The notes below the pieces were generated by a model. It worked only from the letters and a program-made list of their open reading frames with translations, did no database searches and was not told the DNA's origin. This document shows, piece after piece, positions 2,097-21,493 of a stretch of DNA of 37,354 nucleotides. The stretch spans positions 1 to 37,354 of the IMG/VR virus record IMGVR_UViG_3300006810_000141; one strand, 5' to 3'. The stretch's first letter is position 1; every line of letters starts with the position of its first letter. The position numbers and the translations under genes were made by a program. This DNA comes from a virus.

Positions 2097-3089
2097 TTAC
2101 GTTGCGTTAGTCGCAATCGTCGAACCCGACGTGATCTTGCGAAGCGCCTCAGTGCGATACAAGGACCACCCGCAAACCGAGTACCAGCCGATAGGCCGGA
2201 AACGAGAAAGTCGATCCACAACCGGACCGAGTTTCACGGACGGCTCCACGGCGCACGCCTCTGCGAGCGCCTGGTTGCCAATGACGAACGTGCTGTACTC
2301 GTCCTCACCACCGGGACCCGTGCCCGTAGCCATGGGTGCGCGGGAGGTTTCGACAACGTAAGTTCCGCCGAAAACGCCCGTGGTTTGTTCGAGGATAGCG
2401 CCGACATTCGGCTCGGTGTGCTTACGAATGTCCTCGAAGGACAGTGCACCAGTCTCGTTGCGAAGGTCGAACGCAACGTCAGGGTGCATGTAAGCCGCGT
2501 AGAGCGAGCCTTGGCGCGGAACAACATTGTCGCCACGCAACTTGGCAACAGCCTTACGGATAGAAGTACCCGTGATGACGTCGGCGTTCAGGTCCTCAGT
2601 CTGTCCGGCAGCAGCGCCGTCCAGAACCGCAGACACAACCGAGTCAAGGCTGTCGATCATGTTGAACGCAATGATGTTTCCGATAGCAGGGTCGATATCG
2701 GCAAAGGCAGTCTCCTGCACGTACCGAGTGTTAACCACAGCGTTGCCGTACTCCTTGAGCACAACACTCACCTGGTCAACGTCATCCAGCGCAGCCGCAT
2801 CAACGTCAGTTACCTCGGCCAGCGGAGTCGTAGCCTTCGCGAGGTCGTTGTACAGCGAGAACGTCACGGCGTAACCAAGCATAGCCTGCTGCACCGGACG
2901 CTTGTCAGCGAGGTCCCTAAATACGACCTGGGACCGCAACTGGAAATCAACCATCTTGTCATATGCACGCGCAACCAGGTCGTCAAAGCCTGTGCCCGAT
3001 CCACCTGCTGCGAGCGTGCTACTAACCGTCGGCGGAGTCTTGATGGACGCACCGGAGTTAGTTGCTGAGTCGATGAAATTGTCAGCCAT
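2097..3089 (-). CDS. Major capsid protein (N4-gp56-like, HK97 fold)
   Basis: 330 aa, the usual size. The pattern QQAMLGYAVTFSLYNDLA followed by TPLAEVTDVDAAALDDVDQV and then VVLKEYGNAV is characteristic of the N4-gp56 capsid family. Later segments (YAAYMHPDVAFDLR, IGNQALAEA) fit the HK97 P- and A-domain order. A purine-rich ribosome site (AAGGGGGTGA) lies upstream of the ATG. It follows the scaffold gene and is followed by a strong hairpin, a common arrangement for a highly expressed capsid gene. It should self-assemble into the procapsid shell with the 3131-3592 product. Confidence 0.85.
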   Translation of the reverse strand: MADNFIDSATNSGASIKTPPTVSSTLAAGGSGTGFDDLVARAYDKMVDFQLRSQVVFRDLADKRPVQQAMLGYAVTFSLYNDLAKATTPLAEVTDVDAAALDDVDQVSVVLKEYGNAVVNTRYVQETAFADIDPAIGNIIAFNMIDSLDSVVSAVLDGAAAGQTEDLNADVITGTSIRKAVAKLRGDNVVPRQGSLYAAYMHPDVAFDLRNETGALSFEDIRKHTEPNVGAILEQTTGVFGGTYVVETSRAPMATGTGPGGEDEYSTFVIGNQALAEACAVEPSVKLGPVVDRLSRFRPIGWYSVCGWSLYRTEALRKITSGSTIATNAT

Positions 3090-3130: not shown

Positions 3131-3592
3131 TTATTTGACCGGACCATTCGGATTGCCGAACAAAATCTCATTCAATTCCTCGGGGGAACTGGCAGAGTCG
3201 ATACGACTCATAATGTCTCCCGCACTAGCGGCAGGAGCATGAGAAGTAATGTCAGCCATACGACTGGCGGCCTGGACTTCCTCAGAAGATTCTTGAGGAT
3301 CACCCGTACTAATGCCGAGAATGTCAGCGTTCTCGTTGAGCCACGCAGTAACATCATCAGCAGTTACTACCTCGGCTGGCATGAACTTCGCCATGCGAGC
3401 ATCCAAGCCATTCGCGGTCAGTGTGCCTTCAATGACACTGTTTCGATTAGCAGTTGAAAACTCTTCAACCTGCTTGCGCAGTTGCTCAATTTCTTTCTGC
3501 TTAGACTTGTAAGCCTTACGCAGTTGTCGAACAACATCACTGCCCAAATCGTCATCCAGGCTGTCAATATCGAAATCGTCATTCTCTGACAC
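3131..3592 (-). CDS. Scaffolding-like protein (153 aa)
   Basis: GTG 3592 is chosen because GGGAG lies seven bases upstream; the frame extends to 3634 without a ribosome site. The product starts with an acidic stretch (SENDDFDIDSLDDDLG) and continues with a coiled coil (RKAYKSKQKEIEQLRKQVEE). It then has a helical ALNENADI-type middle and an acidic C-terminus (SSPEELNEILFGNPNGP). Acidic, coiled-coil proteins directly before the capsid gene are typically scaffolds that are lost on maturation. The assignment rests on composition and position, not a motif. Confidence 0.7.
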   Translation of the reverse strand: MSENDDFDIDSLDDDLGSDVVRQLRKAYKSKQKEIEQLRKQVEEFSTANRNSVIEGTLTANGLDARMAKFMPAEVVTADDVTAWLNENADILGISTGDPQESSEEVQAASRMADITSHAPAASAGDIMSRIDSASSPEELNEILFGNPNGPVK

Positions 3593-3708
3593 GGTGTTAC
3601 TCCCTATCTCTATGTGAATCGCCAGCCACAACAAACACCTGGGGGAGTGCCGTTGGCTCTGACTACCGGACTACTACACGCTTAGGGCCGGTCGGTCTAA
3701 GTCGGAGT

Positions 3709-3789
3709 GGACGAGGTGGGAATCGAACCCACGTAACCCGGCCTACCCTCGTGGGGTCCTGAACCGGGTTCTTTCCAATGTTCTCGCCC
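3709..3789 (-). tRNA. tRNA-like element, amino-acid type not assignable
   Basis: Read on the minus strand, GGGCGAG (3789-3783) pairs with CTCGTCC (3715-3709) as a 7-bp acceptor stem, followed by A. A perfect T arm, GTGGG-TTCGATT-CCCAC, precedes the 3' half. The middle does not make a standard D arm or anticodon loop. Instead AACCCGG pairs with CCGGGTT in a long rod enclosing a smaller ACCC/GGGT hairpin. CCA is not encoded. Either it is an unusual or decayed phage tRNA or a tRNA mimic. It occupies the gap between the scaffold gene and the 370-aa virion gene. Confidence 0.55.
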
Positions 3790-3796
3790 TGACTAT

Positions 3797-4909
3797 CTAC
3801 CCTCGGTTGGTAGATAGAGATGAAGAAGAAATACCTGACGAGCCGCCGAACCGCGCTCGCTCACGGGACTGCAAGCCCCGCACCTTCTTCTTGGCTTCTG
3901 TATCCAAATCCATGCCAGCGAGCAGAGCCTCGCTGTCACTGAGGTCACTGCCCTCAATGTTTGCGAGACGCGCCGTGGCGTCACGGATAGCGGAAGCCTC
4001 AGTGAACTGCTGCGTGTAGTTTCCTACGCGAGCATCCTGATTGTCGGACAGTGAGGCAACTGTCTCTGCCGCCTCACGGTTAATGTCAAGACCGCTGCGG
4101 CCAGCAGCCCCACCCAGCAGAGCAGCATTAGCCATGCGATTGATCTTGTTTTGAGTGCGAACAGGATCAAGGACGAACTCAGTCAGGGTCGCCGTGTCGA
4201 TCCCGTAGAACTCCTGCAAAGCGTTGACGGTTTCGTCTGACGTATCAGCGATAACCCGGGCAGCGTCGTTTACACGCTCCCGAACCTCGGCAACGCTGAC
4301 GCTGTAATCAGCAACCAACTCAGCGATGGAATCAAACTGAGCCTGCGTACCATCGGTGCCAAGGAAGTCACGCATCCCTGCCTCACGGAAAACGGAACGG
4401 TACTCACGCTCAAGGCTCAAGTACTCAACCTCGTTGGAAATATCCGTTATGCCCTGTCGACGCAAGTCGATAAGCCCCTTAAAGCGAGTCTTGTACGTTT
4501 CCGTCTCAGGGAGTTTCGCAACAATTACCTCAATGTTGTTGCCCCACTCTTTGATGAGCCGGTCAAGATCGTCGATCAAACCCTCCATGCCACCCCACTC
4601 GCCAAGGCGAGCAGTCAGAATGGCTTTTGCTTCCTGGTTCTTTCGGTTCGTCTCGTCCTGCGCTTGACGGTTCAGGGCCGCATTAATGGCGTTCTGCACG
4701 TCCTGCTGGGTCACGCCAGAATTCCCGCCATTGGGAGGCGGCGGGGGAGGTGCGTTCCTCCGCTGCAACTCTTGGCTTTGCCGAACAAGGTCTTGCATGT
4801 AGAGATGCTGCTGATGCGCCCATTGTGGGTTGCCGTTAGCCAAGTGGATGTTCGCTACGCGCTCAGCGTTCGCGTAATTCTCGTCTATCTGTGCTTGCGT
4901 TAAAGCCAC
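3797..4909 (-). CDS. Helical virion protein (370 aa), unknown
   Basis: Almost entirely predicted helix: an N-terminal AHQQHLYMQDLVRQSQELQ coil, a seven-proline linker (around residue 55), then charged helices. The C-terminus is Gly/Ser-rich (ARFGGSSGISSSSL) after a KKKVRGLQSRERARF basic stretch. With the next two genes it forms a block of internal helical proteins between the giant protein and the scaffold, as expected for ejected internal virion (core) proteins of podoviruses. No catalytic motif is seen. Confidence 0.65.
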   Translation of the reverse strand: MALTQAQIDENYANAERVANIHLANGNPQWAHQQHLYMQDLVRQSQELQRRNAPPPPPPNGGNSGVTQQDVQNAINAALNRQAQDETNRKNQEAKAILTARLGEWGGMEGLIDDLDRLIKEWGNNIEVIVAKLPETETYKTRFKGLIDLRRQGITDISNEVEYLSLEREYRSVFREAGMRDFLGTDGTQAQFDSIAELVADYSVSVAEVRERVNDAARVIADTSDETVNALQEFYGIDTATLTEFVLDPVRTQNKINRMANAALLGGAAGRSGLDINREAAETVASLSDNQDARVGNYTQQFTEASAIRDATARLANIEGSDLSDSEALLAGMDLDTEAKKKVRGLQSRERARFGGSSGISSSSLSTNRG

Positions 4910-4914
4910 TCAGA

Positions 4915-5880
4915 TCACCCATATCCAAAGATGCGACTAACCGCGTTTAAACCACGTGTGTAAGTGGCGGCAGCGTCATCAGACTTCTGCCACTCGTCAG
5001 TGTTACGAATGAACTTCTCGGCTTCCCAGAGGGGGCGAGCCTTCCAGGTGCCGTCGGCACCCTGCGACTGCATCATCTCCTGCATGATCGGGTCATTCAT
5101 CGCCATATCGGATCGACCCAGCATCTTCTGCGCCACCGCACGGTACGGGGAAGCGAGGTCATAAATATCAATGCCAGCATTAATCTGCTCAGCCCACCCC
5201 GGGAACGCACCCAACATGTATTGGGTTCGCATCTCCTGCTTGACCTGATCCAAGGTCTTGTCACCGAAAGCGACAGAAGCCAGCATCCGGTCAGCGGACT
5301 CTTGATCTACCTCAAACCCATTACGCCGGGACCAGTTAGTGAGTTCCGCTGCTGCGGTCCCCAAAGTTCCGGTGAAGCCCTCGTTCTCTGCACTGGCTGT
5401 CAACTGCTCCGCGACCATTGGACGCAAGGCAGCATCAACCTCAAGAGCAGTCCAACCCTCACGCTGTGCTTGCGTAGCCAGTTCACTGAGTTTGTCCGGT
5501 TGAATCTGGAAACCCAGAACACGAGCACGATCAGCGATCAGATCGCTACGGTCAGAGACGTTATCCAGGTACTGCTCAGTAGTAGCCGGGTTGTACTGCT
5601 GACGATAAGACTTCCGCTCCTGCTCGTTTAAACCCTTCCACCACTCGTTGGTGAGGATTTCCTTTTCAAGCCAAGCGGAAGCGGCCTCGGCAGTCCTGAA
5701 AGCAAGGGGGTTCTTCTTATTGGTCAGGAGTTCCCTGAACTCATCCAGCAGTCGACGGAAAGAACCAGACTCGTCATTCTCAGCCATGCTGTACCACCAC
5801 TGGTACTCAGCCTTAAGTTTCTGACGCTCCTTGTTCTTCATGCTCTCAACGGGAGCCGGTGTACTAAATGCCACTGTCAA
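4915..5880 (-). CDS. Helical virion protein (321 aa), internal/ejection candidate
   Basis: Starts MTVAFSTPAPVESMKNKERQ and overlaps the preceding gene by 17 bp. Rich in Trp, Gln and Glu. The C-terminal part (LASPYRAVAQKMLG, MNDPIMQEMM, KARPLWEAEKFIRN) resembles a module I have seen in structural proteins of environmental phages with large internal proteins. The role as an internal or ejected virion protein is inferred from that module and from its neighbours. It contains exact GTTTAAAC sites at 4945 and 5626. Confidence 0.6.
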   Translation of the reverse strand: MTVAFSTPAPVESMKNKERQKLKAEYQWWYSMAENDESGSFRRLLDEFRELLTNKKNPLAFRTAEAASAWLEKEILTNEWWKGLNEQERKSYRQQYNPATTEQYLDNVSDRSDLIADRARVLGFQIQPDKLSELATQAQREGWTALEVDAALRPMVAEQLTASAENEGFTGTLGTAAAELTNWSRRNGFEVDQESADRMLASVAFGDKTLDQVKQEMRTQYMLGAFPGWAEQINAGIDIYDLASPYRAVAQKMLGRSDMAMNDPIMQEMMQSQGADGTWKARPLWEAEKFIRNTDEWQKSDDAAATYTRGLNAVSRIFGYG

Positions 5881-7110: not shown

Positions 7111-10100
7111 TTACTGCTCTTTGAGTGCCCGGTTCGTTGCCTGCCAAACTTCTGGCTTGACCAGTTCGTTCAAGTAATCCCGGTCGTAGGCAGCACGGTT
7201 CACATCCCGAACCAACTTGTATTCCGCAGTTAGCACTCTTTCGAGGTACGTAAGAGGTGTGCCCTGCGCAATCAGGTCGTTTACACGCAACGTCTCCAAG
7301 CCACGCAAAGTAGTCGTGCCCTTCTGCGGAGCGAAGAAACTAAGACCCAAGGGGTTCTCGTCAGCAATCTCCTGATGCTCCTGGATGAACTCATGCGTCT
7401 CTTGGAAACTCAACCAAGAGCCTGAGTTCTCCGTAGGTGCACCCTTACTGACGGTGGCCACGTATGGCGACTTACCGTCGGGGTGCATCTGCATCCACAG
7501 GACTACCGCCTGGTCCTTATCACCGGTCGCCTTGAGCAAGGCAATGAACTCCTGCCGTAGGTCCGTGTAACCCAGGCTTCTGGCGAAGTCGCTACCACTG
7601 AGCGTCTCCATCTTGAGAGCCGCAGGAATCACGGGGGACAGGGCAGTCTTGAGAGCCATGACCCAGATGGAAGTCCGGTCGATCCTGCGCAGCAGGTCAT
7701 CCCGATCAATGCCCTGCTCTTCCCAAGACTTGCTCTCATCCCACCATCCGGCCGCAGCAGCGGCCTGGATCGTTGACATAGTGGCGCTGTACTTAGCCCC
7801 ATCAATGCCAGTTCCCAACCGGTCAAGGCTGTCCCGAATCTGCTCGGGGTCCGAAGCGAAGTAGTCGTCGACCTCCATGGCCAACTGCGCTGCACGCAGG
7901 GCATGAGGCGGGACCGCCGCAATCAGCGGGTTAGCCTCCCTGTCCGCGTACTCGCCAAACAGTTCGTCACGAAGGTCAATACCGAATAGACCCTCGGCGG
8001 CAATGACTATCGGCATCGCCGCGATGGTGGCGTACCAGCCGCTGAACGTCGGGAACACCGCATTGGGGTCAGTTGACGGAGTAAGTTTCGTGACCCCGCT
8101 GCTGTAAGCGGCAGGCATTGAATCCGTGTACATACCGTTACGGTCGAACACGTTGTTCATAAACCAGTTCAGGCTACGGAATACCAGCGGTGAACCAGGC
8201 CAAATGAAGTACTTGTCCCCGTAAGAGTCCTGCCAGAACAGTCCACTGTTGTCGATGACACGCCAAGCAACAGCGGCCTTAACGATGCTGGACGGCTCAT
8301 TGCGCACTGCTCGCTGTGTGCGACGGAAGAAATCCTCCAGTGCTCGGTAGAAGCGAGCAACGTTGCGGACCTGCCAAGCCAGGTGGCTACGGATAGCCGG
8401 ATTATCAACGTAATCAAGAGTGGCGAAGAAGGCACGCTCGGTGGCCATTTCAGTAGCCCACTGCTTAGAAGCGACAGTCGCCTCATCAACGGTCATACCG
8501 GCGGCGATTGCACGCTGACGCATCTGATCCTCAAGCGGCTGCAACACCTTGCGAGCATCAATGTAGTTGCCGATGAAGATTGGTTCACGAGTCATGCGAG
8601 CGAGGCTGCGACCCATCGCACCCCACAGGGACTGAGAAATGCTTGTGGTCTGGGTAAGACCCTGTGCATTCTCAGTGTTCATAATGATCTGGTCGGGAGC
8701 GAACCCGTCACCTACCAGTTGTGCAAGGAAGTTATCGTCAATCAGGTATTCGTCACCGTCACGGATTCCCCAAGCCGTGACCTGCTGACCATCGACCTCG
8801 GTAGTGAACCGGACCCTGTTGTACAAGGCGCGATTCAGTTTGCCGTTCTTCGTACCGAACCATGCACGCAAGTTGTCCATGGTTGCTTGCGCAAGGGCAG
8901 TAGCACCTTCCGATGAACCAATGGTCATCTGCGTTAGGTACGGCCAGTTACCGACACCATCGTCAGCGAGGCGCTGCTGACGGGTAATAACGCTGGCTAT
9001 CTCAGCAATGATTCCCTGCTGAGCCTCTATGTCACCTTCCCTGACGGCCTTGATGTAGGCAGGCAGTCTGCGCAAAGCGGCGGTCGCCTTGGGTCCATCA
9101 GACAAAGGCATGGCTTGCGCGATTCCGTTGAACCACGCCCGAACCTCGTCTGCACCCCCGGTCATGCGGACGCTTTGCCAACCGGCTTCCGTCTTGACGC
9201 GCTTCTCCCAATGACCAGGCTTTCCCTCTTTGGGCTTCACCCAATAAAGGTGACCGACCGGGATGCGACCATCTACGGGCGCAATCGGAGCACCATCAAA
9301 CAAGTGGCCAGCAGTCTCAGAAACCTCATCCATGGCACGCAGCGTGTCGTTAAAGATGACCGAATCTTCTAAGTACTCAAGAGCCTTCACAGCCTCGTCA
9401 GATAGTTCTTCTTTGCCAAAGAACTTCTGGAAGTACGGGTGTCCACGCAAACGGCTACGAAGCCAGATAGTCCCGATCAACGCCGCAAGTTTCGTCCTGT
9501 CGCCAGCAGCGACCGCTTCATCAGCGGCCTTCAACTGAGCCGGGGTTGCGTTGTTCGTAATCAACGCAGCCATGACGTCGACCGAAGCGTCGTAATCTTT
9601 ACCCTTGAAAACCTTAGAAAGAGCCTTTACCAGGCTGTATGTGCCTGACTTAACAATGCCAAGTTTTTGCGAACGATCAGCCTCATCAGGTACCGGGTTC
9701 CCATCAGCGTCATACTTAGGCTCCCGGTACACGCGATCCTTACCAACTAACCCTGCGCGACCCTGGGCTTTCGTCCGCATCGACCCTTTACGTATGGCCT
9801 GCGACATTTGTCGACCAGTCTTAAGGTCGCCCAGGTTCCCGCCAGTTAGCAGGTAGAAGCCAATATCTTCAAAACCAGAACGCAACTGGAACCGGGGGCC
9901 AGCAAGCGTGCCGAGGGTCCACCAGTCAGTGGCCCACCCAACCGCATTGTTGTTGCCCAGCAGGGCAGCGAAGGTTGATTCGCGTCGCGCTAAGGCGTCC
10001 ATGGCGGCGATGTTCGGGAACGCCATTTGGTTCGTGGTCTGACCGAACACGACAGCGTTGTGGTTGCCACCAACGGACAGGCTCGGGTCAATGCGACCGC

Positions 10101-13100
10101 TGTCCACGGAGTCACGGAACTTGGCTAATGCCGTACCAACCTGGCGACGAACATCCATATCAATATCTGGTGTCGCAAAGGTTGCGCGGTCAGGAACGAC
10201 AGGCGCGGCTGCCGCCCCGGGGAATCGTTGGTTCTGCGATATGATGATCTGCCCGGGCCGGAAGGACCTATCCGAACCGTGGAACAATATGTCAGGATCG
10301 TTAAGAACCTCGGGGGGCAAATCTTCAATATCACCAATGACCTCAAAGCCCTCACGCGACATAAAATCAGTTCCAGGCTCATTACCCAAGAATCGGTCGT
10401 GTTCCATCTGTCCGACAGGCCGTACCGCATGAACGTTATTTCCGTAACTCTGCGCGGCCTCTAGTTCCTTTGTGGCAAAAGCGAAATCAAAAGCGTCATC
10501 GACTTCATCAGCAACTGGTGCAGCATCAAGCCTGCGAGTGATTTCCTCACTATTGGCAACCTCCACGTCACCAATATCTCCACGAGCCTTTAGCAGTTTC
10601 TTCTGCACACCCTGCAACTGCTTCTTGTCGGACGCCCGAAGTTTTATCTCTGCCTCGTCCAGGTAATACGTAACGTCATCCAAGAGTGCTTGAACTTGAG
10701 CGCGAGTTAAGGTGACAGACACGGTGCTGCCTGCACCCTCGGGCATAGGAATGTCGATTAGGTCACGAGCGATAGCATCGGACAGGTAGTCACTGCTAAT
10801 GCGGAAGGTGGCCGCTTCTTCTGGAAGTTCAGCGGGAGCGGCTTCGGCCTCCATTCGTGCCCGCACCTGAGCGTCCGTCTGCGCCCCTGCCACGGCCTCC
10901 TTACGAGTGCGGAATGGGCTTCCAATGACTTCATCAGTCGGCTCACCCGCCTCGTCAAGGCGAGTCATGTAAAAGCGGTTGTTCGCCTTCGTTAAGTAGT
11001 AGCGACCAGTTTCGTCAGTGACCGCTGAGCCACGGGGGAAAACCAGTTCGGGTACTTCCACTTGCGGCTGGGATTGAAACTCCTCATTCAGCCGCCGTAT
11101 CTCCGCTTCCTCAGCATCCATGCGGGCAAGGGTCGACTCTAGTTCATCAGCGAAGGAAACGGGTGCGGGGGCCGGAGCGGGGGCTAGAGCCTCAACCGCA
11201 CGCTGCTGAACCGCAAGCCCACGTTCGTAAGAGGACACCAGGGGCACGTCATCAGCGACGTAAATACCTGCGAACGATTCGTCATATGCGTAGAACACAA
11301 CATCGGGACGACCGTCGTTAAATCGGGCAAAGGTGTCGTAATCCCAACCCGGGGGAGCGTACTCGTCATCGAACGCAACACGAGCGACTGGATACATGCC
11401 CATGCGGGTGTAGAAAGTCGGAAGGACCGTGGCGAAAGAATCAGCCCTACGTCCACCCTCTTTAACTCCCAGCGTCATCGCAGAGATTGAGAATTGCTCA
11501 GCAGTACTGGCCGGGGCCTTAAAGACACTAATAACGTCATTACCTTGAAGGGCGAATCCCGATAGACCATCGTCGGTTACAAAGAAGCGTGCACCCGCAT
11601 ACTCGTCAGCCGAGTAGATAGTGACAGCCGCACCGTAAGGATTGTTCGCTTTCGCGCTGCTTATGAACCCGATGAATGCTTGAACGTCATCAATCTCGTT
11701 GAAAGGAACTAGGTCGAAGGGGAGATATGCGTTTGCAGCAGGGTCAGGGTTGAAACGGGCAACAACATTTACCTCAGTTTCACCTAGAACTCGTAGCCCT
11801 GTTGCTCCATCTCTAATCCAGACTTCATCGTAGGTTCGTCCATAATCTTGTCGTAGTCGAACCGTTGCGGCTCGCGTCCGCGCATCAATACCTCGTTGAG
11901 TTGCCTTTGCTCTTCCTTCGTCAGTCTTATTGTTGGTTGCTGACTTGTCGGCTCGCTTGGCTGTGGCATCCCATTGCTTGACATAATCATCAAGTGTACT
12001 CGCAATCTCGTCATCACTCAAACGCAGCGGCGGGGGAATGTTCGGGTAGTTCCCAGACTGCGGAAGAAGAAGGTCCTTACTAATCGTCTTGTCGCCGGTG
12101 CCCTTTAAACGCACCCCACCACGGTTTGTCACCGTGGCAACGGTCATCGACTTCCACTGACCGGCATCCTTGTCCCACATGAAAACTTCGTCGCCAACCT
12201 GATACTGGTTGACTTCGCGCCCCATCTCACCGAAACGGAGCGCACGCTCGGACTCGAAAGACTGACGTATTTGTTGTTTAAACTGCTCCGTCAGTCGGGC
12301 GTCCTCGGCTAAACCGTCAAAAAACTTAGGCGAGTACTGGTCCTCACGAGGGATGCCAGCGAACCGGGCGAGCACATCATTGCCACCAGGAACCTGATCT
12401 ATGCCTCTCGCCTTCAAGCCCTGCTCAATGATCCCGGGCAGCATTTGTGTGCGCTGCGCACCGGTCGTCGCCTTATCAGCCCAGATAAGTTCGACGCCGC
12501 GAGCGAAGTGGCGGGGCATACCAGCCCACTCAAGGAAGTCACCTACGCGCTTGGCATGGCGTCCATCGGCAGTCCAGATAGGACCACCCTGCATGGGCAT
12601 ACGCTGACCGATCCGGCGCTTGCGCTCCCACCAACGGCGGGAAGCCAGGAATCCGCCCTTAGTGCGCCAGCCGTAGCGAGCGCCGATGCGCTTATTCGCC
12701 TTCAATGCTGTGCCCGTGAATGAGCGGACCATCTGTCCGTCGACCCAGACGAAATCACCCAGGATGCGTGCTATCTCGTCGCCGTTCTCGCTTGCCTCGG
12801 CAAGAGCCTTAGCGAGAGCCTGCACACCTTCCTCGGGCATGGAGTTTGTGTAACCCGGGCCGACCAGTTCGTCGACGTACTGGTACGCGGACTCTGGTGT
12901 GTACGTGAAGCCACGCGCCGCCATACCCATCTTCTTGGCCAGCACTGTGGCTGACGTCATGTGGGGGACGACCAGTTGACGACGACGGCGAGCGTGCTGA
13001 CCGACAACCAACTGCACCAGGTTCTCGTTCTCCATGAAGTAGTCACGGAAAGCCTCGGGTGTGTAGGCGTCGTCACCGAGTTCTTTCATGTACAGGCGCA

Positions 13101-14943
13101 TATCGTCAAGTGCCTCGGGACGGAAGTAACGCTTCCACCGCGCTTCGACGCTCTTACGCAACTCACCAGCGCGTGAGACACCAGCCTGGTTGATTGCTCG
13201 CAGGTCACCACCGAGACTGTTGAAAGCGTTTTGTACCGCACGCTGCTGCCACATGGAGGTGAACTCTTCGGCGCGGTTCACTCCACGAGCCTCTGCGGAA
13301 AGGATTTTCCACAGTCCGTAACGTGCCGTCATCGCTGTCTTGACGGGGCCAGTCAGCAGCAGCGGGTCCAGGGCGTATCCAGCGACGTTACCTATCGTGG
13401 ACACCGCTTTGTACGTAAGGGACTGTCCCTGCTCTAGCCGATCCTCGGCCGACGGTTGCCCATACAATCCGACAGCGAGAATGTTGCCTGTGTTGCCGGT
13501 GCGAGCGAACTGCAACTCGTCAAAGACCTGCATCGCTTCTACGTAACCGTCACCGCCCGGGAACTGAGTGACACCAAGCCACTCCATAAGTTCGACCGCC
13601 TGCGTGTCGCCTTCTTGCGCCTGCTTCCCAAGTTCGATCAGGATTTCTGGCAGGCGTGTCGTGTCACCCTCGGCTTGGGCTTGCATGATTTCGACGGCGA
13701 TATCGGTCTTGCGCTTGCCGTACTTGGCAGAAATCTCAGCGACCATCTTCGGGTCCATGGCACCCAACTTGGCCATGGCCCACGCATTAGAGAACCCGAC
13801 GTTGTAACCCATATCGGGGCCGGTCACGCCAGGAATGTCTGGTAGTGAGTCGACTGCGAGTGCGCCAGCGCGTGCTGCTTGCTGCAAGAACTCGTTGGTC
13901 TGGTTGAAAACTACGTCGAACGCCCAGCCAGCGGTCCAGTTCCACAGGTACTTGGTGTTGGTAATGACCGTGTTACCGGTGTCCTGCTGACCGATGACGT
14001 CGTTGCGAGCCTTACGCTCGGCAACCTCACCGATCATCCACTTGGTGGGGGAGAAGCCCCCTTCGGGGCCGGACGTTAAGTCCTCAACTACGTCGGCACG
14101 ATACTGCTCAATCTGATCCGCGTAATCCTGATCGGTGACGCGAAGGGTGCCAGCCTCGGCTTCCTCAACGGTTTGCTCTTGCCACGCCTGGGCAATGTCA
14201 CGAACCAGCAGTTGCTGCGGCTCACTCATCCGGCCGAAGAACGCTTTGGCCTGATCGTCGGTCATGTTCACGTTGTTCAGGAAAGCGGCGGCATCGAAGG
14301 CGACAGCGAAGTTGATTGACTCGCGCATCTCACGGTCTGTGTAGTTACCTTGCGCCAAACCCATCGCAAGAAGCGGGTACTTGGAGGCGATGAACTCGTT
14401 GCGGCGCTGCTGACCCTTCATTGCCGTGATCGGCGGGTCATCGAACAGGTTGCGCAGGTCACCCTCAGACTCAAGCCACTCAAGGTCTTGCTCTAGTTTC
14501 TGCTGCGCCGCACCCTCACCGAGAGGGTTGAACATGGCGTTGTAGTCAGCGTCCTCTATCGGATCAAACTCACCGCGCTCCACACGGTTGCGGTCCAGTT
14601 GGGCCTGCAAGTTGAAGCCTTCGGTGTACTCATTAGGCAGAGCGCCAGGGTTGTACTCACCGGGACCGACGAGAATGTCGTCGACGTCCGGCACGGGGCT
14701 GGTGATGCGAGTGAAGCCGGGGCGCTTACCAGGGTTGAAGTTCTCACGGATGTACGCCTGCCGAGCAGTGTCTACTTTCCGATCAAGACGGTCGATCTTT
14801 TCGTTAAACGCAGGGTCCACAGTCGACAACGGGGGTGGAGTCATCTGCGAACGCATCTGATTCATGCGACCGGCAGGATTATCTGGCGTCCCCAGGGCAG
14901 GGTTACTGCGCCCAACTGTTACGGAGGCTCTACTGCGTTCCAT
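7111..14943 (-). CDS. Giant 2610-aa polyvalent virion protein
   Basis: One uninterrupted frame of 2610 codons, a fifth of the window. N-terminal ~1000 residues are largely helical. A Tudor-like segment (GDEVFMWDKDAGQWKSM) is near residue 900. Residues ~1050-1235 form a mixed alpha/beta domain (AGARFFVTDDGLSGFAL, FYTRMGMYPVARVAF, DVVFYAYDESF) resembling domains of phage large polyvalent proteins. An Ala-Pro linker sits near 1254. LFHGSDRSFRPGQII near 1557 recalls the start of ADP-ribosyltransferase-like folds. The C-terminal 700 residues are helical with one hydrophobic segment near 2300 (AAMPIVIAAEGLFGI). It is probably packaged and ejected. No polymerase or lysozyme motif was found. Confidence 0.7.
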   Translation of the reverse strand: MERSRASVTVGRSNPALGTPDNPAGRMNQMRSQMTPPPLSTVDPAFNEKIDRLDRKVDTARQAYIRENFNPGKRPGFTRITSPVPDVDDILVGPGEYNPGALPNEYTEGFNLQAQLDRNRVERGEFDPIEDADYNAMFNPLGEGAAQQKLEQDLEWLESEGDLRNLFDDPPITAMKGQQRRNEFIASKYPLLAMGLAQGNYTDREMRESINFAVAFDAAAFLNNVNMTDDQAKAFFGRMSEPQQLLVRDIAQAWQEQTVEEAEAGTLRVTDQDYADQIEQYRADVVEDLTSGPEGGFSPTKWMIGEVAERKARNDVIGQQDTGNTVITNTKYLWNWTAGWAFDVVFNQTNEFLQQAARAGALAVDSLPDIPGVTGPDMGYNVGFSNAWAMAKLGAMDPKMVAEISAKYGKRKTDIAVEIMQAQAEGDTTRLPEILIELGKQAQEGDTQAVELMEWLGVTQFPGGDGYVEAMQVFDELQFARTGNTGNILAVGLYGQPSAEDRLEQGQSLTYKAVSTIGNVAGYALDPLLLTGPVKTAMTARYGLWKILSAEARGVNRAEEFTSMWQQRAVQNAFNSLGGDLRAINQAGVSRAGELRKSVEARWKRYFRPEALDDMRLYMKELGDDAYTPEAFRDYFMENENLVQLVVGQHARRRRQLVVPHMTSATVLAKKMGMAARGFTYTPESAYQYVDELVGPGYTNSMPEEGVQALAKALAEASENGDEIARILGDFVWVDGQMVRSFTGTALKANKRIGARYGWRTKGGFLASRRWWERKRRIGQRMPMQGGPIWTADGRHAKRVGDFLEWAGMPRHFARGVELIWADKATTGAQRTQMLPGIIEQGLKARGIDQVPGGNDVLARFAGIPREDQYSPKFFDGLAEDARLTEQFKQQIRQSFESERALRFGEMGREVNQYQVGDEVFMWDKDAGQWKSMTVATVTNRGGVRLKGTGDKTISKDLLLPQSGNYPNIPPPLRLSDDEIASTLDDYVKQWDATAKRADKSATNNKTDEGRAKATQRGIDARTRAATVRLRQDYGRTYDEVWIRDGATGLRVLGETEVNVVARFNPDPAANAYLPFDLVPFNEIDDVQAFIGFISSAKANNPYGAAVTIYSADEYAGARFFVTDDGLSGFALQGNDVISVFKAPASTAEQFSISAMTLGVKEGGRRADSFATVLPTFYTRMGMYPVARVAFDDEYAPPGWDYDTFARFNDGRPDVVFYAYDESFAGIYVADDVPLVSSYERGLAVQQRAVEALAPAPAPAPVSFADELESTLARMDAEEAEIRRLNEEFQSQPQVEVPELVFPRGSAVTDETGRYYLTKANNRFYMTRLDEAGEPTDEVIGSPFRTRKEAVAGAQTDAQVRARMEAEAAPAELPEEAATFRISSDYLSDAIARDLIDIPMPEGAGSTVSVTLTRAQVQALLDDVTYYLDEAEIKLRASDKKQLQGVQKKLLKARGDIGDVEVANSEEITRRLDAAPVADEVDDAFDFAFATKELEAAQSYGNNVHAVRPVGQMEHDRFLGNEPGTDFMSREGFEVIGDIEDLPPEVLNDPDILFHGSDRSFRPGQIIISQNQRFPGAAAAPVVPDRATFATPDIDMDVRRQVGTALAKFRDSVDSGRIDPSLSVGGNHNAVVFGQTTNQMAFPNIAAMDALARRESTFAALLGNNNAVGWATDWWTLGTLAGPRFQLRSGFEDIGFYLLTGGNLGDLKTGRQMSQAIRKGSMRTKAQGRAGLVGKDRVYREPKYDADGNPVPDEADRSQKLGIVKSGTYSLVKALSKVFKGKDYDASVDVMAALITNNATPAQLKAADEAVAAGDRTKLAALIGTIWLRSRLRGHPYFQKFFGKEELSDEAVKALEYLEDSVIFNDTLRAMDEVSETAGHLFDGAPIAPVDGRIPVGHLYWVKPKEGKPGHWEKRVKTEAGWQSVRMTGGADEVRAWFNGIAQAMPLSDGPKATAALRRLPAYIKAVREGDIEAQQGIIAEIASVITRQQRLADDGVGNWPYLTQMTIGSSEGATALAQATMDNLRAWFGTKNGKLNRALYNRVRFTTEVDGQQVTAWGIRDGDEYLIDDNFLAQLVGDGFAPDQIIMNTENAQGLTQTTSISQSLWGAMGRSLARMTREPIFIGNYIDARKVLQPLEDQMRQRAIAAGMTVDEATVASKQWATEMATERAFFATLDYVDNPAIRSHLAWQVRNVARFYRALEDFFRRTQRAVRNEPSSIVKAAVAWRVIDNSGLFWQDSYGDKYFIWPGSPLVFRSLNWFMNNVFDRNGMYTDSMPAAYSSGVTKLTPSTDPNAVFPTFSGWYATIAAMPIVIAAEGLFGIDLRDELFGEYADREANPLIAAVPPHALRAAQLAMEVDDYFASDPEQIRDSLDRLGTGIDGAKYSATMSTIQAAAAAGWWDESKSWEEQGIDRDDLLRRIDRTSIWVMALKTALSPVIPAALKMETLSGSDFARSLGYTDLRQEFIALLKATGDKDQAVVLWMQMHPDGKSPYVATVSKGAPTENSGSWLSFQETHEFIQEHQEIADENPLGLSFFAPQKGTTTLRGLETLRVNDLIAQGTPLTYLERVLTAEYKLVRDVNRAAYDRDYLNELVKPEVWQATNRALKEQ

Positions 14944-20459: not shown

Positions 20460-20606
20460 ATGCGTTTGGTGTCGTGCAGCATCCATGACGATGTGCGGGT
20501 TCGCCTGTCGTCGTCTCAGATCGAATCTGGCGCACCTCTGTGCGGCCGGGATCATCCGAATGGGACCGGCATTCCGTGCTCGCTCCGTCTGACGGAGGTG
20601 GCTTAG
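20460..20606 (+). CDS. 48-aa Cys-containing peptide directly before the amidoligase
   Basis: ATG 20460 has GGGAG at ideal spacing; the stop TAG lies three bases before the amidoligase ATG. The product begins MRLVSCSIHDDV and contains PLCGRDHPNGTGIPCSLRL, a compact two-Cys module after an earlier Cys. No family is recognised. Its fixed place before the amidoligase suggests co-translation and possibly a shared function. Confidence 0.55.
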   Translation: MRLVSCSIHDDVRVRLSSSQIESGAPLCGRDHPNGTGIPCSLRLTEVA

Positions 20607-20608
20607 TC

Positions 20609-21493
20609 ATGGCGCTCACGTTTGGGATCGAATTGGAAATGGCGTCACCGTTGCGCCATTCGCAGGTGGCAGATGCGTTGAATGCAGCGGGTTTAAACAT
20701 CCCTGCGATTCCCGCCTCGTACTCCGGTCGGGACTACACGAAATGGCAGGTGAAAGATGACGTGACCATTCCGACGAATGGCCGCCTTCCGTGGAAAGTT
20801 GAGGTGGTGTCACCGGTCCTGACGTGGGATGACCCGCGTCATCTTGAGGACCTGGCGACGGTCACCCGGGTGCTGAATGAGATTGGCGCACGGGTCCTCC
20901 GGCCACAGAGTGCACGTCGCACGGCCGGTTTGCACGTGCACATGGAAATGGCATCCATCGGGCAGGATGCTCTCGCCAGGTGGGGACGTATCTGGTCCTC
21001 TCGCCAGAACGTGACCGACACCCTGGTCCGGTCCGGTCGGGAACGTGGCGGCCGGTATTCCGAATGGTGCGCGGTCCTGTCGGGGTCCGCATGGGATCGG
21101 TTCGTAACGGCCGCCCAATCGGGTGACGCCCGGGCACTGACGGGCGTGGCGTCGTCTCACGGCTACGCGGTCAATACGCAATGGTTCCTTGAGCGAGGAA
21201 CGCTTGAGGTCCGGCAACGTGACGGTTCGATCAACTTCCGCAAGATCATGGGATGGGTCGGATACATCCGTGCCACCCGTCTGCACGCGGAGTCGAATGC
21301 AACGTATCGCACGACGAATGGCGACTACCTGTCCTGGTTGGTCGACATGGGGTTCCTCTCAGAGGATCACCGTCGATGGGCGGAGCGTCGGGGGACCGGA
21401 TCACCGGCACCGTCTGCACCTGCACCGACCGACCCGGTGGCACCGGCCACCACGGACCGGCTGGCGCGTCTGCGTTCGTTACAGCGCGTCTGA
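20609..21493 (+). CDS. Amidoligase (glutamine-synthetase-fold COOH-NH2 ligase)
   Basis: ATG 20609 with GGAGG upstream gives 294 aa. Family hallmarks: N-terminal FGIELEM (acidic metal site), the central GLHVHMEM His motif, and RQRDGSINFRKIMGWVGYIRA near the C-terminus. The last ~35 residues are a Pro/Ala/Thr-rich tail. Members use ATP to activate a carboxylate and join it to an amine, forming amide or isopeptide bonds on peptides or small molecules. It is followed by a class II glutamine amidotransferase and a GGCT-like enzyme, a set reported for predicted peptide or cell-surface modification (Iyer, Aravind and colleagues, as I recall). The substrate is unknown. Confidence 0.78.
   Translation: MALTFGIELEMASPLRHSQVADALNAAGLNIPAIPASYSGRDYTKWQVKDDVTIPTNGRLPWKVEVVSPVLTWDDPRHLEDLATVTRVLNEIGARVLRPQSARRTAGLHVHMEMASIGQDALARWGRIWSSRQNVTDTLVRSGRERGGRYSEWCAVLSGSAWDRFVTAAQSGDARALTGVASSHGYAVNTQWFLERGTLEVRQRDGSINFRKIMGWVGYIRATRLHAESNATYRTTNGDYLSWLVDMGFLSEDHRRWAERRGTGSPAPSAPAPTDPVAPATTDRLARLRSLQRV

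Follow-up and report, generated by a model that had tools for sequence, protein, structure and literature searches.

The window, the whole 37,354-nucleotide stretch of viral DNA analysed here, carries on its minus strand, in this order, a gene for a 370-aa protein, a tRNA-like element, a gap, a scaffold-like gene and the major capsid gene, which agrees with the original prediction of a tRNA-like element in the late operon immediately upstream of a scaffold-like gene. The 370-aa gene (3797..4909) matches phrog_8424, a family of unknown function (E 2.2e-41), and its stop codon is located 7 bases upstream of the element, which occupies 3708..3789 with its 5' end at 3789. A 115-base gap separates the element from the GTG start codon (3592) of the scaffold-like gene (3131..3592), which follows a GGGAG sequence; the gene matches PHROG head scaffolding at E 7.5e-4 and 3e-3 and the unknown family phrog_7813 at E 4.6e-29. 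The major capsid protein gene (2097..3089) matches the major head protein family phrog_1357 (E 7e-53) and PF13252. Capsid relatives were found in 38 phage records, including 35 Streptomyces phages, all with less than 60% identity, and many further relatives are IMG/VR contigs; searching bacterial genomes with the capsid gene revealed no host. At the place of the element, 19, 21 and 14 tRNAs are annotated in the Streptomyces phages Manuel, Stella and Abafar, respectively. Elsewhere the window contains a 2610-aa open reading frame (7111-14943, minus strand) with no PHROG match at E 0.01 and a gene (20540-21493, plus strand) matching Pfam Amidoligase_2 (E 2.9e-18).

The unconstrained fold of the minus strand places the 82 bases of the element in an acceptor stem, 12 unpaired bases, a rod and a T arm. 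The acceptor (3789-3783 with 3715-3709) has 7 of 7 pairs, one of which is G3.U70, and the T arm (3732-3716) has 5 of 5 pairs and a TTCGATT loop, so that both are as perfect as predicted. The D-loop-like stretch (3782-3771) has no stem, and the anticodon arm is replaced by the rod (3770-3735), formed by AACCCGG/CCGGGTT with an inner ACCC/GGGT hairpin. The identity positions are A73 at 3708, G3 at 3787 and U70 at 3711, and CCA is not encoded. The fold energy of -36.5 kcal/mol corresponds to a z of -2.73 and is equalled by 1 of 200 shuffles. The element is real, and the covariation of its acceptor and T arm within the family, given below, places it beyond chance. On the plus strand the fold has a z of -0.36, and a structure there was rejected.

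To define the family, an acceptor and T-arm search over 318 loci, drawn from capsid searches with the best 80 loci of each, gave 80 distinct ARAGORN-negative elements. After the exclusion of 17 elements located inside genes or tRNA arrays, or without GG..CC-A ends, 63 variants remained. A cloverleaf with a D stem of at least 3 bp and a 7-base loop with U33 could be parsed in none of the 63, while the same search recovered 171 of the 258 ARAGORN-called tRNAs of the same loci with a 5-bp anticodon stem and 201 of them with a stem of at least 4 bp; the comparison is partly circular because the variants had been picked as ARAGORN-negative. The position of the GG points the same way, being 3-6 bases past the acceptor in 58 of the 63 variants and 9-10 bases past it in 192 of the 258 tRNAs; there is therefore no 5' strand for a D stem. 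In the window ARAGORN calls no tRNA, and the element lacks a D stem and a 7-base anticodon loop, despite a match to positions 1-71 of 71 of the Rfam tRNA model with 30.5 bits, just above the cut-off of 29. The predicted tRNA-like element without an anticodon arm is thus borne out by the missing ARAGORN call, the missing cloverleaf and the rod in the fold. A tRNA, ordinary or type II, whose anticodon is hidden was rejected for want of a cloverleaf parse, and an anticodon loop interrupted by a short intron was set aside on inspection by eye.

The available text of PMC3968760 gives G3.U70 together with A73 as the alanine identity rule of tRNA-Ala and of tmRNA, the ribosome-rescue RNA of bacteria. 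G1-C72, G2-C71 and A73 are present in all 63 variants, as parts of the filter that defines the family, which partly fixes 1:72, 2:71 and 73; pair 3:70 is free of the filter, and it is G.U in 62 of the 63, the window element included. The pairs 4:69 to 6:67, by comparison, come in three or four forms each. A capsid-protein tree that includes 77 rows bearing the tRNA-like domain (TLD) has a single change at pair 3:70 and 8, 11 and 11 changes at pairs 4:69, 5:68 and 6:67, respectively. When folded without constraint, 60 of the 63 variants form acceptor, rod and T arm; the rod is variable, and the middle part folds better than shuffled sequence (median z -1.9). An alignment of 22 variants, made up of 16 of the 37 non-redundant ones plus 6 near relatives, has 99.2% pairing in the acceptor and T arm. 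Both sides have changed in 55 of its cells (12.2 when shuffled), and its covariation score is 0.589 against 0.137 for shuffled and at most 0.129 for slid alignments. The family is under selection, its arms being kept by compensatory change and its alanine identity being retained; since the paired arms covary and 3:70 persists while the neighbouring pairs turn over, it is not a product of decay. A natural variant at L017:3549-3617 retains an intact acceptor and T arm but no longer has the rod's 3' strand.

The combination of alanine identity, a reduced and stemless D loop, a T arm and a helix instead of an anticodon arm, all present in the element, suggests a relationship with tmRNA. In per-record searches the window element reaches E 2.2e-12 with the tmRNA model and 3.1e-6 with the tRNA model, with 30.5 bits in both. 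Archaeal control genomes also match the tmRNA model at E 0.001 or lower, and its best other match in ten related records that have tRNA arrays, a tRNA-Ala by position, has E 4.7e-9. As the model gives low E-values for these archaeal controls and for tRNA-Ala, bit scores against the ceiling of other matches are the fair test. That ceiling is 22.4 bits in the ten records, the L248 element aside; the window element lies above it and below the curated cut-off of 47, and two family members, in L248 (58.2 bits) and L340 (50.8 bits), exceed the cut-off. At E 0.001 or lower the tmRNA model matches in 11 of 15 TLD-bearing records and in none of 4 records with ordinary tRNAs in the same place, and its E-value is below that of the tRNA model in all 6 TLDs matched by both. 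Scans that keep a single top family from the tRNA/tmRNA clan returned tmRNA for 6 of 11 loci (L207, L210, L154, L218, L199, L149), 1 of 4 TLD loci (L365), 3 of 8 (L015, L007, L031), 1 of 4 (L392) and the window, and tRNA or tRNA-Sec for the ordinary-tRNA loci L250, L286, L057, L116 and L143. The remaining TLD loci had no reported match for the TLD in scans of this kind, and Rfam scans in E-value mode lose matches, since the L340 TLD and the near-identical one of L392 were each missed in one scan and matched in another. The D-loop motif GG..UCGAC, found in L248, L201, L207, L340, L365 and L392, resembles the GGaUUCGAC of the tmRNA model; the GGAAAG of the window is more distant from it. Because the window element alone scores 30.5 bits in both models and controls also have low E-values, the tmRNA reading is carried by the family, which, judged by sequence and fold, is very probably a TLD-only, tmRNA-like RNA. 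A complete tmRNA is ruled out, as the message part is missing: the 82 bases hold no mRNA-like domain, tag reading frame or pseudoknots, and about 290 positions of the tmRNA model are deleted.

Three bases downstream of the 3' end of the element begins a structured leader (3593..3707, minus strand) that extends to the start codon of the scaffold-like gene. It consists of a hairpin H1 (3704-3697 with 3685-3679), a pseudoknot PK1 between the H1 loop and CCGGTAG (3692-3688 with 3669-3665) and a long hairpin H2 (3663-3621) whose loop includes CCCCC (3645-3641), and it includes the ribosome-binding site GGGAG (3604-3600), with which the cytosines of the loop could pair. An alignment of 28 of the 46 non-redundant leaders, with the Streptomyces-type ones left out, has 90.8% of its cells paired, 160 cells changed on both sides against 53.7 shuffled and at most 34 slid, and a covariation score of 0.578 against 0.192 and at most 0.125, respectively. 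The leader is thus strongly supported as a structured RNA. The core pattern of the leader is present a single time in the window and absent from 100 shuffles, and a search independent of the capsid gene found it in at least 119 viral-contig stretches; no Rfam family matches the leader at cut-off. It accompanies phages with a TLD, with tRNAs or with nothing in the preceding slot. A 46451-base Streptomyces hoynatensis contig (L336, L393), equal in length to an IMG/VR virus, also has the leader, with no tRNA-like element seen in the slot, and a host link is possible. The TLD and leader of L160 matched no phage isolates.

The slot before the leader is interchangeable: it is occupied by TLDs, ordinary tRNAs or miniature stacks, or it is empty. 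Of 133 distinct slots flanked by a leader, 73 contain ARAGORN-negative acceptor/T-arm elements, of which, with the end filter removed, 66 have G3.U70 and A73; the exceptions at 3:70 are L065 and six that belong to a Streptomyces-type clade or are mis-parsed. Ordinary tRNAs with many different anticodons fill 31 slots, and 29 have neither by the strict search. Ten of these 29 (L119, L149, L203, L260, L267, L303, L029, L032, L035, L063) contain miniature acceptor/T-arm stacks at a fixed distance, compared with 8 of 5800 shuffles, and 17 were counted empty; two further slots, L159 and L169, resemble miniature stacks by eye. The stacks are roughly 43 bases long, with an acceptor of 5-7 bp and a T-arm-like hairpin whose loop is often TTCACGA or GTCAAG. 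By eye, L303 has an acceptor, a D arm and a T arm and misses the anticodon arm. L032 (about 4900-5350) and likewise L029 and L035 seem to have a small open reading frame inserted between a TLD and the leader, and the miniature stack, 3' of that reading frame, adjoins the leader. L340:629-899 has two ordinary tRNAs, then the TLD above the tmRNA cut-off, then the leader. Along the capsid tree the slot switches from one class of content to another 35 times or more. Another 47 leader loci, which include near-duplicates, have a slot with nothing recognised in 34 cases, a tRNA in 7, a TLD in 4 and a mis-parse in 2 (L376 and L396, marked as TLDs by the script); all 4 TLDs have G3.U70 and A73. The empty slots beside the leader, 34 of these 47 and 17 of the 133, weigh against the element being strictly required.

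A processing site here, as originally proposed, is plausible, since the spacing between the end of the slot element and the leader is almost constant, whether that element is an ordinary tRNA, a TLD or a miniature stack: A73 is 14-16 bases before the H1 loop in 65 of the 73 slot elements and in all 31 slot tRNAs. The acceptor (7) and T stem (5) of the element make 12 bp directly at its ends, the length of the acceptor and T stem ruler given in the available part of PMC11143913, which also describes RNase P cleavage of acceptor/T-arm hairpins and of some phage RNAs. The best explanation, to which we give a probability of roughly one half, is that the element is excised as an alanylatable TLD that competes for SmpB, while the capsid mRNA takes its 5' end from the cut. 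The TLD would be transcribed as part of the late operon and cut by RNase P at 3789 and by RNase Z or another 3' nuclease after 3708; CCA, not being encoded, would be added after excision, and the host AlaRS would charge the product with alanine. The charged TLD would bind SmpB through its D-loop/T-loop elbow, and the host protein would be the partner, since none of 15 phage records encodes SmpB; competition with host tmRNA late in infection would damp trans-translation. The same cuts would leave the scaffold-capsid mRNA with a 5' end three bases before the pseudoknotted leader, where the folded leader would stabilise or control it. The two parts of this explanation differ in strength: excision in cis is reasonably probable, and interference with trans-translation is the more tentative. 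For the latter, the accessible text of PMC4131195 describes strong inhibition of tmRNA by a molecule like the TLD of Mycobacterium phage DS6A; as that inhibition is reportedly independent of alanine, simple titration leaves the conserved alanine identity unexplained.

The element might act in cis only, as a tRNA punctuation mark that provides an RNase P/Z handle ahead of scaffold and capsid, with G3.U70 merely inherited and neither charging nor SmpB involved. That ordinary tRNAs and miniature stacks take the same slot at an equal distance to the leader is what such a role would lead one to expect. Processing has no need, however, of a 3:70 pair that stays G.U while its neighbours turn over, nor does it fit the slots with nothing recognised at most of the further leader loci. 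In addition, 10 of the 60 slots not occupied by a TLD have an intact alanine-type TLD further upstream, and these ten phages, keeping a TLD away from the leader, suggest a role in trans; we regard a purely cis role as rather unlikely. Still less probable is a function as decoy or substrate of a host defence directed against tRNAs or their charged forms. The missing anticodon arm, which leaves no loop for anticodon nucleases, the alanine identity and the finding that 13 of 14 further TLD-bearing records have no other tRNA at E 0.001 would all suit it, but no defence system is linked to the locus and the tmRNA-like D loop of several members is left unaccounted for. The simpler alternative named originally, a decayed tRNA, here taken to be the last remnant of an array like the 14-21 tRNAs at the same place in the sister Streptomyces phages, is largely refuted by the compensatory changes in the arms, by the folding of the middle part and by an alanine identity retained on deep branches, and is very improbable. 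Of the original prediction, the element, its place and its plausible processing stand, a setting of scaffold and capsid dosage is hypothetical, and decay is not supported; the tmRNA relation, the alanine identity and the structured leader had been overlooked.

The identity of the family as TLDs is well supported; its function is one that we infer. As far as the available sources describe, a phage TLD-only tmRNA was previously known from one phage, DS6A, and dozens are found here under clear selection. Given that their alanine identity is conserved and their position ahead of the capsid genes is fixed, phage attack on, or borrowing of, trans-translation becomes directly testable, and the leader, unmatched in Rfam, precedes a gene whose dosage matters in capsid assembly. 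Standard annotation overlooks both element and leader, since ARAGORN does not call the TLDs and Rfam sees a weak tRNA in the window. If the excised alanyl-TLD draws SmpB away from host ribosome rescue late in infection, capsid dosage would be coupled to trans-translation control; that a phage lineage thus carries its own tag-less tmRNA inside the capsid mRNA, in an interchangeable slot, is conceivable and somewhat doubtful.

In the parts of the literature available, DS6A and organelle cases are the only precedents for the TLD family or its leader. The tag-less tmRNAs found in mitochondria and in the plastids of Mallomonadaceae (about 65 bp), as given in the available part of PMC11915505, are likewise reduced to the TLD, but they are organelle genes and the element sits in a phage late operon. 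Bacterial tmRNA (ssrA, RF00023) shares with the element the alanine identity, the T arm, the stemless D loop and a helix in place of the anticodon arm, the rod resembling tmRNA helix 2, and two family members score above its Rfam cut-off; unlike ssrA, the element has no mRNA-like domain, tag or pseudoknot ring. The tRNA arrays of Streptomyces Beephvirinae occupy the same slot between the same two flanking genes, but they are composed of ordinary tRNAs (14-21 annotated in three phages) rather than TLDs, and L248 and L340 contain both. The closest parallel is the TLD-only tmRNA of DS6A, compared here by its description in the accessible text of PMC4131195 and PMC11915505, a phage RNA with little beyond the TLD of tmRNA and no tag reading frame. 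DS6A is, however, one phage, whereas the present family has dozens of members with a fixed place before the scaffold gene and adjoining a conserved leader.
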